Source of the DNA: Bifidobacterium breve
GTDB lineage: Bacteria; Actinomycetota; Thermoleophilia; Solirubrobacterales; Solirubrobacteraceae
DNA length: 64,000 bases
NCBI GenBank assembly: GCA_945878865.1
Contig: CAMCUD010000004.1
Span: forward strand, 62,001-126,000
Direction: 5' to 3'
In this document: positions 47,077 to 51,321 of the stretch, piece by piece
Layout of the letters: each line of letters opens with the position of its first letter
Numbering within the stretch: the first letter of the stretch is position 1
Notes under the pieces: model-generated
Told to the model about the DNA's origin: nothing
Databases searched by the model: none
Seen by the model: the letters and a program-made list of their open reading frames with translations, nothing else
Program-made: the position numbers and the translations under genes

Positions 47077-47868
47077 TCAGCTTCGCGCCGACACGACGTA
47101 GACGTCGAGGTCCTGCGGAGTACCCTTCGCGCGGAAGCGCCGCAGGCGCTTCGCGTCGATGGTCTCGGTGTCCAATCCGGCGAGCGCCGAGGCCGAGACG
47201 AGGACCGTCCCGGCGCGCGCGGCGTCCATGAGCCGGGCGGCGATGTTGACGTCCACGCCGAGGTAGTCGGAGCCCAGCCGGCGCGGCCGGCCGACGTGGA
47301 TGCCGACCCGGATCCGCGGGTCGTAGCCGCCGATGTCGATCTGCGCGAGCCGCTCGCGCGCGTCGAACGCGGCGGCCACCGCGCGCTCGGACGTGAGGAA
47401 CACGGCCATGTGGCCGTCGCCGAGCCGCTTGACGATCCGCCCGCCGTGCTCGAGGACCGCCGGCTCGACCGCGCGCGCGACCTCGCGCAGCAGCTCGAGC
47501 GCGAGCTCGTCGCCGGCTTCGAGCGCCCACGTGGAGAACCCGACGAGGTCGGTGAACATCACCGCGAGCTCCTCGGTGCCGGCCCCGCGCCCGACGGACT
47601 CCGACAGCGCCTGCCAGACCTGCAGCACGCCCAGTCCGACTTCGCGGGAGGCCCGCGGCTCGCGCTCACCCACCTCCGTCAGGCGCCGCGCGAGCACCTG
47701 GGACGGGCGCTGCTCGGCCGTCGACAGCTCGTCGCCGTAGCGCGCGTCACCGGGCAGGATCGCCGCGCGCGCGGTGCGTGCGGCCTCGATGAGCCCGGGG
47801 CTCGTGTCGAGGCGCCGCGTCGCGGCCGAGAGGCGGGTCCAGCGCTTCGGGCGGGGCTCGGTGCCCAT
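47077..47868 (-). CDS. Class III adenylate/guanylate cyclase domain protein
   Basis: A 263-residue protein with a 100-residue N-terminal helical region and a C-terminal cyclase domain: the metal-binding VMFTDLVGFSTWALEAGDE, RIVKRLGDGHMAVF (second metal region), and GIHVGRP ... YLGVDVNIAARLMDAA. The Asp residues for two-metal catalysis are present (FTD and GDG), so it is likely active. It would make cAMP. The ATG lies 6 nt after TACGGT (47880-47875, minus strand). It diverges from the DyP gene across 69 nt. Confidence 0.9.
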   Translation of the reverse strand: MGTEPRPKRWTRLSAATRRLDTSPGLIEAARTARAAILPGDARYGDELSTAEQRPSQVLARRLTEVGEREPRASREVGLGVLQVWQALSESVGRGAGTEELAVMFTDLVGFSTWALEAGDELALELLREVARAVEPAVLEHGGRIVKRLGDGHMAVFLTSERAVAAAFDARERLAQIDIGGYDPRIRVGIHVGRPRRLGSDYLGVDVNIAARLMDAARAGTVLVSASALAGLDTETIDAKRLRRFRAKGTPQDLDVYVVSARS

Positions 47869-47937: not shown

Positions 47938-48951
47938 ATGAGCACGCCGCAGGCCATCCTCACCCCGCTGACCGAGGCGGCGATCTTCCTCACCGTCGTC
48001 GTGGAGCCGGGAGGGGAGGACGCGGCGCGCGACCTGCTCGCCGACATCGGCGGTCTGCGCCGCTCGGTCGGATTCCGCGCTCCCGAGGACGGCCTCGCGT
48101 GCACGGTCGGGATCGGGTCGAACGCGTGGGACCGGCTGTGCGGCGCGCCGCGCCCGGCCGCGCTGCACCCGTTCCGCGAGATCGCCGGGGCGCGCCACAC
48201 CGCGCCGTCGACCCCGGGCGACCTGCTGTTCCATCTCCGCGGCCGCCGGCTGGACCTGTGCTTCGAGCTCGCGCACCGCATCGCCGACCGGCTCGGTCCG
48301 GCGGGCCGGGTCGTCGACGAGGTCCACGGCTTCCGGTTCTTCGACGAGCGCGACCTGCTCGGGTTCGTCGACGGCACCGAGAACCCCGAGGGCGATGAGG
48401 CCGCGGAGGCCGTGCTCATCGGCGACGAGGACCCGGCGTTTGCCGGTGGCTCCTATGCGATCGTGCAGAAGTACCTCCACGACCTCGCCGCGTGGCGTGC
48501 GCTGCCCGTCGAGGAGCAGGAGCGCGCCGTTGGCCGAACGAAGCTGAGCGACATCGAGCTGCCCGACGATCGCAAGCCGTCGAACTCGCACGTCGCCCTG
48601 AACACCATCGTCGACGAGGACGGCGAGGAGCAGCAGATCATGCGCTTCAACATGCCGTTCGGCGCGGTCGGGCGCGGCGAGTTCGGCACGTACTTCATCG
48701 GCTACGCCCGCACGCCGGCGGTCATCGAGCAGATGCTCGAGAACATGTTCGTCGGCAAGCCCGCGGGCAACCACGACCGCCTGCTCGACTTCTCGACGGC
48801 GCTCACCGGCGCGCTGTTCTTCGTCCCGCCGCAGGCCGTCCTGGAGGACGGCCCGGAAGATCCCGGCACGGACGCGGCATCACCATCTGAGACCGGCACC
48901 CTCGGCATCGGCGCGCTCAAGGAGGCGACCCGTGAACCATCTGCTCCGTGA
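47938..48951 (+). CDS. DyP-type heme peroxidase, encapsulin cargo
   Basis: A 337-residue B-type DyP. The distal motif GFVDGTENP (142-150, catalytic Asp145), the likely proximal His218 (PSNSHVAL) and Arg236 in IMRFNMPFG are intact. After the fold ends near residue 300 comes an acidic linker and then TLGIGALKEA (321-330), the cargo-loading peptide type that docks DyP inside family 1 encapsulin shells. It oxidises dyes, phenols or metals with H2O2. The last 20 nt overlap the encapsulin gene. The exact start (ATG 47938) has no clear ribosome site. Confidence 0.95.
   Translation: MSTPQAILTPLTEAAIFLTVVVEPGGEDAARDLLADIGGLRRSVGFRAPEDGLACTVGIGSNAWDRLCGAPRPAALHPFREIAGARHTAPSTPGDLLFHLRGRRLDLCFELAHRIADRLGPAGRVVDEVHGFRFFDERDLLGFVDGTENPEGDEAAEAVLIGDEDPAFAGGSYAIVQKYLHDLAAWRALPVEEQERAVGRTKLSDIELPDDRKPSNSHVALNTIVDEDGEEQQIMRFNMPFGAVGRGEFGTYFIGYARTPAVIEQMLENMFVGKPAGNHDRLLDFSTALTGALFFVPPQAVLEDGPEDPGTDAASPSETGTLGIGALKEATREPSAP
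48919..48931 (+). promoter_or_regulatory. Encapsulin ribosome site inside the cargo-peptide codons
   Basis: AAGGAGG (48919-48925) lies 6 nt before the encapsulin GTG. The same bases encode Lys-Glu of the DyP cargo-loading peptide (residues 328-329). A single short stretch thus specifies both cargo targeting and shell translation. Confidence 0.85.
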
Positions 48952-49732
48952 GCTTGCCCCCATCGGCGCGGGCACCTGGCAGCTCATCGACGACGAGGCG
49001 AAGGAGCGGCTGACCCCGGCGCTCGCCGCCCGAAAGCTCGTCGACTTCTCCGGCCCGCACGGCTGGGAGCACTCCTCCACGAACCTCGGGCGGGTCGAGC
49101 CGCTGGCCTCGGTGCCCGTCGGCGGGGTCACCGGCGCCCGGCGCAAGGTGCTCCCGCTTGTCGAGCTGCGCGTGGACTTCACGTTGTCCCGCGAGGAGCT
49201 CCAGACCGCCGAACGCGGAGCGGAGGACACCGACCTCGGCGCGCTTGACGAGGCAGCCCGGCAGCTCGCGCAGGCCGAGAACGTCGCGGTGCTGACCGGC
49301 TGGGCCGATGCGATCACCGGCATCGGCGAGGCCGCGACGAACGCGCCCGTCCCGTTGCCGGCCAGCGCGCAGGAGTGGCCGGACGCCGTGGCCGCCGCCG
49401 TCGCCGCGCTGCTCGAGCAGGGCGTCGCCGGTCCGTACGGGCTGGCGCTCGGCACGGCGCAGTACCGCCGCGCGCTGGAGACCGCTGAGGGTGGCGCCTA
49501 CCCGCTGACCAAGCACCTCGCGCGGATCATCGAGGGCCCGATCGTGTGGGCGCCCGGCCTGGAGGGCGGGATCGTCGTCAGCCAGCGCGGGGGCGACTTC
49601 CTCTTCGAGAGCGGCCAGGACATCGCCGTGGGCTACGACGGCCAGGACGGCGACGACGTGCGCTTCTACCTACAGGAGAGCTTCAGCTTCCGGGTCGCCA
49701 CGCCGGAAGCGGCGGTCGTCCTGCCCGCCTGA
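48932..49732 (+). CDS. Family 1 encapsulin shell protein (linocin M18/CFP29 type)
   Basis: A 266-residue HK97-fold shell protein: MNHLLRELAPIGAGTWQLID and ARKLVDFSGPHGWEHSS at the N-terminus, the E-loop region with RKVLPLVELRVDFTLSREEL, and PIVWAPGLEGGIVVSQRGGDF toward the C-terminus. The length is standard for 60-subunit (T=1) encapsulins of about 24 nm. The upstream gene supplies DyP peroxidase with the matching docking peptide, so the two should form a peroxidase nanocompartment. GTG start with an excellent AAGGAGG site. No other cargo gene is adjacent. Confidence 0.96.
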   Translation: MNHLLRELAPIGAGTWQLIDDEAKERLTPALAARKLVDFSGPHGWEHSSTNLGRVEPLASVPVGGVTGARRKVLPLVELRVDFTLSREELQTAERGAEDTDLGALDEAARQLAQAENVAVLTGWADAITGIGEAATNAPVPLPASAQEWPDAVAAAVAALLEQGVAGPYGLALGTAQYRRALETAEGGAYPLTKHLARIIEGPIVWAPGLEGGIVVSQRGGDFLFESGQDIAVGYDGQDGDDVRFYLQESFSFRVATPEAAVVLPA

Positions 49733-49769
49733 GAAGGCCGCACCGGAGCCTGGCCCGGCGCACGTCGCA

Positions 49770-50372
49770 TCACGGCAGCCGGGGAGGAGGCTGGGGCAGC
49801 GGCCGCGCGCCCTCCGGCCGAAGGCCATCGAAGATGATGGCCAGGTAGCGCTGCCAGAGGTCGGGCGGCGGGTCGGCGAGGTTCTCCACGACGTGGACGG
49901 GCGCGCAGAGCAGGAGAAACACGTCGGCGAGGGTGACGTCGGACCGGATGGCCTGCGCTTCGCGGGCGCGGTCGACGAGCACGTCGAGCGCCGCCAGCAG
50001 CGCGTCGCGAACCTCGGCGACGCGCGGGTGCCCCTCGCTGGCCGACTGCAGGAACGTCAGGTCGCGCTGCTGACGGCGCTCTGCGGCCACCGTGAGGAAC
50101 TCCAGCAACGCCGCACCCGGGTCCGGCGCGTCCGCCAGGCGCTGGGCGACGGTGACCAGCGCGGCGAGGTTGTCGCTGACGATCGCGGCGATCAGCTCGT
50201 CCTTCGAGGCGAAGTGGCGGAACACCGTGCCCTTCGCGACGCCGGCCCGGCGGGCGATGTCTGCGACTGAGGCCGCAAGGCCGCGCTCGGCGAACTCCTC
50301 CTCGGCCGCCGCCAGGAGGAGATCGCGGTTGCGCGCCGCGTCCGTGCGGAGCGGGCGGGCCGTCGAAGTCAC
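49770..50372 (-). CDS. TetR family repressor, divergent to an SDR
   Basis: A 200-residue TetR protein: HTH at about 10-50 (LLLAAAEEEFAERGLAASVADIARRAGVAKGTVFRHFASKDEL), with a TetR_C-type ligand domain. I choose the GTG at 50372, which lies 6 nt after TACGCT (50384-50379, minus strand). Upstream in-frame starts would fall inside the operator. Two palindromes between this gene and the SDR fit the classical repressor-plus-target divergon, where the SDR substrate or a related ligand relieves repression. Confidence 0.9.
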   Translation of the reverse strand: MTSTARPLRTDAARNRDLLLAAAEEEFAERGLAASVADIARRAGVAKGTVFRHFASKDELIAAIVSDNLAALVTVAQRLADAPDPGAALLEFLTVAAERRQQRDLTFLQSASEGHPRVAEVRDALLAALDVLVDRAREAQAIRSDVTLADVFLLLCAPVHVVENLADPPPDLWQRYLAIIFDGLRPEGARPLPQPPPRLP

Positions 50373-50390
50373 CGCCCGAGCGTAGCAACA

Positions 50391-50448
50391 TGACCGCATG
50401 GTCAACTTATGCGCTACGGTGTCCGCGGCAACATGACCGCGCGGTCAT
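50391..50448. promoter_or_regulatory. Twin TetR operators in the TetR/SDR intergenic region
   Basis: Site 1 is TGACCGCATGGTCA (50391-50404). Site 2 is ATGACCGCGCGGTCAT (50433-50448), a perfect 16-bp palindrome. They share TGACCGC..GGTCA and are centred 43 bp apart. Site 1 covers the TetR promoter region. A TACGGT box (50415-50420) for the SDR gene lies between them. Confidence 0.8.
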
Positions 50449-50496
50449 CTTCCGTCGGGACGGATCGCCGCGACCAACGCAGAGGAGAACGTGACC

Positions 50497-51210
50497 ATGA
50501 AGATCGAAGGCGCAACCGCCCTCGTCACCGGCACCAACCGCGGCCTCGGCCACCACTTCGCGAACGAGTTGCTGCGACGCGGCGCCAAGGTGTACGCCAC
50601 CGCCCGTCGCCCTGAGCTCGTCGACATCCCCGGCGCCGAGGTGCTGCGCCTGGACATCACCGACCCCGCGTCGGCCGACGCCGTCGCCGAGGTCGCCACC
50701 GACGTCGACCTCCTCATCAACAACGCGGCTTCGACGGCCGGCGGCAACTTCGTCGGCGGCGACCTCGACGCGATCCGCGACGTCATGGACTCCAACTACT
50801 ACGGCACCCTCAACGTGATCCGAGCCTTCGCGCCGATCCTCGCGGCCAACGGCGGCGGGGCGATCCTCAACGTCCTGTCGGCGGCGGCGTGGACGACCGT
50901 CGATGGCAACACCGCGTACGCGGCCGCCAAGTCCGCGGCGTGGGGCTTGACGAACGGCATCCGCGTCGAGCTCGCCACGCAGGGCACGCTGGTCTCAGCA
51001 CTCGTGCCGGGGCTCATCGGCACCCAGACGCTCCTGGACTTCGCCAGGGACGCGGGGATGGTCCTCCCGCCGGCCGCGGTCACGGATCCCGCCGACATGG
51101 CCGCGCTCGCGCTCGACGGGCTCGAGGCCGGAGCCGTCGAGATCTTCGATGACATGGGCGCCGACGCCAAAGCCGGCCTGTCCGGTCCTCCTCGAGCCTT
51201 CAGCCTGTAG
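50497..51210 (+). CDS. Short-chain dehydrogenase/reductase under TetR control
   Basis: A 237-residue SDR: cofactor loop TGTNRGLG, NNAA near residue 74 in place of NNAG, Ser in NVLSAAAW, and YAAAK at the catalytic Tyr-Lys. The Arg pair after strand 2 (TARRPEL) suggests NADP(H). The ATG at 50497 lies 9 nt after GAGGAG; a GTG at 50491 is less well spaced. It is followed by a perfect terminator hairpin shared with the tRNA on the other strand. Confidence 0.88.
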   Translation: MKIEGATALVTGTNRGLGHHFANELLRRGAKVYATARRPELVDIPGAEVLRLDITDPASADAVAEVATDVDLLINNAASTAGGNFVGGDLDAIRDVMDSNYYGTLNVIRAFAPILAANGGGAILNVLSAAAWTTVDGNTAYAAAKSAAWGLTNGIRVELATQGTLVSALVPGLIGTQTLLDFARDAGMVLPPAAVTDPADMAALALDGLEAGAVEIFDDMGADAKAGLSGPPRAFSL

Positions 51211-51217
51211 GACGAGC

Positions 51218-51245: not shown

Positions 51246-51321
<76 letters not shown>

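Follow-up and report, generated by a model that had tools for sequence, protein, structure and literature searches.

Docking-tail codons as candidate Shine-Dalgarno sites of encapsulin shell genes, and a DyP peroxidase operon with an EncFtn-type shell

In family 1 encapsulin operons the codons that follow the docking core of the cargo protein form a Shine-Dalgarno (SD) sequence ahead of the shell gene; this is a family rule across 315 related junctions, and it applies where the docking peptide lies near the shell start. One such junction is contained in the window (the whole stretch of 64,000 nucleotides analysed here). It joins the genes of a DyP-type peroxidase and an encapsulin. We consider it likely that this DyP is a cargo loaded through its tail, that the post-core codons of the tail provide the SD of the shell gene, and that the operon is a hybrid, with a DyP beside a shell of the EncFtn type.

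The operon and its junction

Features of the locus (window coordinates):
47077-47868, reverse strand: class III cyclase-like gene, named from its sequence only, bounding the operon
47938-48951, forward strand: DyP-type peroxidase cargo gene (337 aa, from the ATG at 47938 to the TGA at 48951)
48901-48918, forward strand: docking-peptide core LGIGAL (CTC GGC ATC GGC GCG CTC), upstream of the SD and outside it
48919-48921, forward strand: +1 codon AAG (Lys), the single codon with a predicted dual role (salt bridge to the shell and SD)
48919-48925, forward strand: SD-like AAGGAGG of the shell gene, 6 nt before the GTG at 48932
48926-48931, forward strand: spacer CGACCC between AAGGAGG and the shell GTG
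48932-49732, forward strand: family 1 encapsulin shell gene (266 aa, GTG start, EncFtn-type shell clade)
48932-48951, forward strand: overlap of the DyP and shell genes (20 nt)
49770-50405, reverse strand: TetR-like gene, the other boundary of the operon, followed by an SDR-like gene
51248-51321: tRNA-Ala, after the SDR-like gene

The Pfam domains Dyp_perox_N and Dyp_perox_C in the first protein and Linocin_M18 in the second score above the curated cut-offs (PF04454 in the shell: 261 bits, cut-off 24). The NCBIfam models TIGR01413 and NF041155 (encap_f1) are both over their cut-offs as well, the latter with 278.8 bits for the shell (cut-off 100). Along with its N- and C-terminal domains, the DyP contains the motifs GFVDGTENPEG (GXXDG) and SNSHVALN (proximal His). 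The GXXDG motif and the proximal His are hallmarks of DyP-type peroxidases. The closest solved relative of the DyP is 7bok, which we take to be the encapsulated DyP of M. smegmatis; the closest solved shell is 9ry4, and further PDB relatives are 8u50 (Klebsiella) and 7p1t. In the register of the 9e5e alignment, the targeting-peptide pocket of the Klebsiella shell (Arg34, Asp38, Asp229, Ile230; PMC10960027) is present in the window shell as R34, D38, D230 and I231. R34 and D230 are invariant in alignment A1, and D38 is nearly so.

The cargo gene, with its C-terminal docking peptide, lies directly upstream of the shell gene. The DyP ends in the docking tail LGIGALKEATREPSAP; the tail reads GTLGIGALKEATREPSAP, and the codons AAG GAG G(CG) form AAGGAGG. 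Encapsulated DyPs carry the targeting motif GSLxIGSLK, and the LGIGAL core aligns to it (PMC10960027). Direct reading of the sequence bears out three claims of the earlier sequence-only reading, namely that the DyP ends in a docking peptide of the LGIGALKE type, that AAGGAGG over the Lys-Glu codons lies exactly 6 nt before the encapsulin GTG, and that the two genes overlap by 20 nt. The heptamer covers the K-E codons after the core and not the core itself, and mutations in the core, which is of the LGIGxL type and upstream of the SD, would leave the SD unchanged.

The anti-SD duplex at the shell start has a calculated energy of -12.6 kcal/mol; the start of the DyP gene has only a weak SD (-3.3). 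The range given for a complement of the anti-SD is 4-11 nt before the start (PMC2784483), and the window junction, with AAGGAGG inside the DyP gene and a spacing of 6 nt, fits the definition of an upstream-coding SD. The heptamer is not rare, with three copies in the window where chance predicts 2.5; what counts is its placement 6 nt before a real start. The GTG is backed by the family-conserved N-terminus MNxL(L/H)RELAPI. Folding of the junction RNA at this locus is unremarkable (z 0.86).

The length of the overlap is unusual. Of the 315 junctions, 137 have 14 nt and 52 have 17 nt between the last docking Leu codon and the shell start (189 in all); in the window this distance is 13 nt, one less than the commonest value, so the DyP frame is shifted past the usual GTGA stop to the next one. 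An overlap of 20 nt was found in just one junction, against 183 with an overlap of 4 nt. The run of three C before the GTG (within 48926-48931) is one base short of the usual spacer, which explains the rare overlap; the missing base may be a real mutation or an error of assembly. If the C run contains a sequencing or assembly slip, the true junction has a 14-nt distance and a 4-nt overlap. One additional nucleotide restores this majority geometry, which is also that of the two sister hybrids (L362 and L364). However, DyP frames ending inside the shell gene, with an overlap of 8 nt, are normal in proteobacterial operons. We regard the slip as rather unlikely.

Codon choice at near and far junctions

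Taken alone, the window locus has an SD no stronger than Lys-Glu gives in a GC-rich genome. When synonymous codons were drawn by host usage, the mean was -11.5 kcal/mol against the -12.6 observed, and an equally strong SD arose in 48% of draws (p=0.48). The null is not rejected, since this genome normally encodes Lys and Glu by AAG and GAG. These results, and the chance-level count of AAGGAGG in the window, would agree with a coincidence, in which binding requires Lys-Glu, a genome of 73% GC writes these residues as AAG GAG by default, and a start happens to lie 6 nt downstream. The family comparison, in contrast, makes such a coincidence improbable.

We surveyed 353 loci from the window's order and phylum, from Nocardia and mycobacteria, and from plasmids of Proteobacteria and actinobacteria. 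Among them are 315 distinct junctions in which a docking peptide precedes a shell start; clustering at 80% identity gives 97 shell clusters. The narrower family alignment in the contig scan yielded mostly Nocardia and Mycobacterium, and the breadth comes from the genome searches and plasmids; no relatives were found in viral contigs and phage records. Junctions with the end of the docking core at most 20 nt from the shell start were considered near (230 junctions, 71 shell clusters).

In near junctions the three post-core codons have a cluster average of -8.25 kcal/mol, compared to -5.96 for the synonymous null (Wilcoxon p 9e-9 over 71 clusters) and -1.9 at internal Leu-Lys/Arg sites of the same genes. 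Codon usage, counted in an earlier set of 219 near junctions, departs strongly from that of the hosts. At position +1, Lys is encoded by AAA in 128 of 164 cases (34 expected) and Arg by AGG or AGA in 32 of 49 (3.1 expected). At position +2, Arg is AGG or AGA in 70 of 72 cases (3.4 expected), and Gly is GGA or GGG in 110 of 127 (34 expected). Moreover, different residues build this SD, each in its own codon phase: LKE by AAGGAGG, LKG by AAAGGA, LKRS by AAAAGGAGC, and LREGS by GAAGGGAGC. Both observations argue against coincidence, and they support nucleotide-level selection on the post-core codons of near junctions as SD, beyond the amino-acid need. The earlier claim that AAGGAGG is conserved beyond this need thus holds for near junctions across the family, not for the window taken by itself.

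Some near junctions carry weak SDs. In two loci (L224 and L225) the docking core, in the tag LRIGSLR, ends 2 nt before the shell ATG and no SD can be seen, which means that initiation of these shells must work differently; the cargo, hemerythrin-like as suggested by its sequence, differs from DyP. A variant tag, Ile-Ile-Gly-Asp-Leu-Lys-Gly, with Ile replacing the first Leu, was observed directly before the shell start of L142.

Far junctions, with a spacer or a longer tail between the docking core and the shell start, serve as natural controls (80 junctions, 26 clusters). Their docking codons have no SD (-1.3 kcal/mol against a null of -2.5; near versus far p 1e-8); most of them instead show an SD closer to the shell start, in the spacer or the tail. 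The +1 basic residue is retained in both groups (95% of the near clusters, 90% of the far ones), whereas SD-type +2 codons fall from 90% of near to 12% of far clusters. A search with the DyP protein retrieved 21 homologous DyPs from the window's order that have docking tails and no shell gene directly downstream. A strong SD is present at the tail of all three DyPs upstream of a shell gene and of one of these 21 (Fisher p 0.002). A strict DNA pattern for unlinked docking peptides, applied to 80 genomes, returned mostly known junctions and a few off-site matches. The loss of the SD-type +2 codon in far and unlinked tails that keep the +1 basic residue is a further argument against coincidence.

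The junctions surveyed are related to one another. Well-supported branches provide five independent pairs in the shell tree and three in the DyP tree; nearly all of these go the predicted way, and sign tests on them do not reach 0.05. The near/far contrast is partly expected of any SD-led gene, because upstream-coding SDs are general, with SDs inside upstream coding ends in 56% of genes spaced 1-4 bp (PMC2784483). In genus g231 (L271-L300, L334-L353) the DyP tags mostly end with LGIGSLR or LGIGSLH right before the stop, the shell SD is in a separate spacer, and the +1 residue is His in many cases, compared to the usual Lys or Arg.

The near/far pattern, with +1 kept and +2 lost, agrees with the alanine scan in Klebsiella, where K346A abolishes loading, K347A has little effect, and the Lys equivalent to +1 forms a salt bridge to Asp38 of the shell (PMC10960027). 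Only the +1 codon appears to be truly shared by docking and SD, the +2 codon being, to judge from these comparisons, essentially SD-only. Docking and shell initiation seem to be coupled by position and separable in evolution. The sequence-only reading had cargo targeting and shell translation locked together. Their link stands, given the shared bases and the SD selection throughout the family; the lock does not, as the 80 far junctions lack an SD at that place and, with the 21 unlinked DyPs, demonstrate that the coupling can be dissolved. That reading had also taken conserved docking peptides without a ribosome site there as a sign of mere coincidence. Such peptides exist, in just these 80 junctions (26 clusters) and 21 DyPs, and they do not make the overlap a coincidence, since SD-type codons are found at just those tails whose position requires them. 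A stronger version, that far junctions refute the dual use altogether, was rejected, as the codons shift with the geometry.

The junction geometry, the family codon selection and the absence of the SD at displaced tails come from sequence; from there we infer the use of the SD in translation, its coupling to ribosomes finishing the DyP gene, and loading. The two genes would form a family 1 core operon with the DyP loaded via its C-terminal docking tail. The tail ends just before the shell start, so its post-core codons may also serve as SD, the +1 Lys codon in both roles and the +2/+3 codons (GAG G) mainly as SD. Ribosomes would start the shell at the GTG through AAGGAGG, aided by those arriving from the DyP gene. 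The strong internal SD and the weak SD at the DyP start would favour shell over cargo, as a 60-subunit shell needs; each such shell holds one or two DyP hexamers, a cargo to shell ratio of 1:10 to 1:5 (PMC8229669). A change of Lys to another residue would then hit loading and initiation, a change in the core loading only, and a change at +2 mostly initiation.

Another possibility, which we find somewhat doubtful, is that the shell is translated mainly by termination-reinitiation after the DyP gene, the SD is only an aid, and the docking codons constrain the output little. The 4-nt overlap of the 183 junctions is typical of this process (PMC6728339, PMC10666635), and encapsulin papers assume strong translational coupling in these operons. 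However, the strong codon bias toward SD would then be unnecessary, the DyP stop in the window comes 17 nt after the shell start codon, and the ratio of DyP hexamers to shell given above requires more shell than cargo.

An EncFtn-type shell with a probable DyP cargo

In the shell trees most family 1 shells split by cargo, most DyP-carrying shells forming one clade and EncFtn-type shells another. The window shell and those of L246 and L269, from the same family, carry DyP, yet they sit inside the EncFtn clade (support 98/94 and 100/99), and forcing all DyP shells into a single clade is rejected (p-AU 0.0024). The cargo of the window shell's relatives is EncFtn-like by Pfam (PF22277). Neither the window's genome nor those of the two other hybrids yielded an EncFtn (G903 being only 83% complete). 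The DyP of the window falls in an order-specific clade (100/99), made up of 16 copies that are not upstream of a shell gene and three adjacent ones. The three hybrids are grouped by the shell tree, but not by the DyP tree.

Docking-tagged DyPs not directly upstream of a shell gene were observed in about 20 genomes of the order (L355-L377; G905, G012, G892, G833, G887, G945, G831 and others). Many genomes with an unlinked tagged DyP keep an operon of EncFtn and shell, and this co-occurrence predicts dual-cargo compartments with ferroxidase and peroxidase. The unlinked DyPs of the order are probably secondary cargos. In genome G905 the two genes are reversed, the shell gene coming first and the DyP gene following after 8 nt (L394:3690-5527, G905:C43); this DyP keeps the docking tail LAIGSLKQPSR with no SD at the tail, and there is no tagged cargo upstream of the shell.

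On the simplest history, EncFtn would once have occupied the core place and a secondary DyP cargo would have displaced it. Tentatively, the docking core and SD might form an exchange joint, at which an unlinked DyP takes the core place and immediately drives shell translation, e.g. by recombination within the shared docking sequence; at least one EncFtn replacement would then have occurred in the order. If so, the predicted dual-cargo compartment would have become a single-cargo one, with the iron-storage EncFtn replaced by a peroxidase.

Alternatively, the DyP beside the shell may be ancestral, with EncFtn replacing it in the relatives, or the hybrid may have arrived as a unit by gene transfer; this we consider possible, though not probable. 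The trees are unrooted for the trait. Furthermore, DyP, shell, TetR and SDR are absent from the syntenic interval of the two sampled genomes of the same genus (L392 and L393), where the flanks match, so gain or loss of the operon in one piece is possible. On the other hand, the three hybrid shells are nested with support inside EncFtn-type shells, and the clade around the hybrid DyPs consists mostly of unlinked copies from the same order. In the window the block of DyP, shell, TetR and SDR (47938-51211) ends near the tRNA-Ala gene. It is possibly an accessory island.

Further DyP-carrying shells within the EncFtn-type clade were observed in family f63 (L306, L312, L301, L305, L307, L228, L230), so the cargo may have changed in more than one event. 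The hybrid operon makes the exchange of ferritin and peroxidase cargos of encapsulins testable within one bacterial order.

Comparison with known systems

An SD inside the upstream gene is textbook biology, and in form the window junction is ordinary for its family and explained by known operon biology. In the literature searched we found no report of an encapsulin docking tag doubling as the shell SD, only general remarks, and this dual use seems to be undescribed there. It partly explains the conservation of targeting peptides: the +1 basic residue is kept for binding, and the Gly, Glu or AGG-encoded Arg that follow mainly for the SD. Sequence logos of targeting peptides therefore combine a protein signal with an RNA one. 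In native operons, changes to the end of the tail, by recoding or by mutation, could alter the shell-to-cargo ratio; this is relevant to encapsulin engineering and to the interpretation of mutant scans carried out in such operons.

In general upstream-coding SDs, described in 2009 (PMC2784483, and Eyre-Walker cited there), the SD likewise constrains the end of the upstream gene; in the window, however, the constrained end is a cargo-docking tag. The secondary cargos EncC and EncD of M. xanthus and BfrB and FolB of M. tuberculosis are docking-tagged and encoded away from the shell (PMC8229669), as are the unlinked DyPs of the window's order; unlike them, these DyPs are closely homologous to a core cargo, and three genomes have a DyP in the core place itself.

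The DyP-encapsulin core operons of M. tuberculosis (Rv0799c-Rv0798c), M. smegmatis, B. linens and K. pneumoniae likewise have a DyP with a C-terminal targeting peptide of the GSLxIGSLK type directly upstream of the shell gene, and in M. tuberculosis the stop and start overlap too (PMC11676171). The window differs from them by its 20-nt overlap and by a shell that belongs among the EncFtn-type shells and not in the DyP-type clade. With the family 1 EncFtn operons of the same order it shares the shell clade, the docking core and the SD joint; however, their cargo is the EncFtn-like protein PF22277, which was not found in the window's genome. This hybrid pairing of cargo and shell is more surprising than the SD within the tag.
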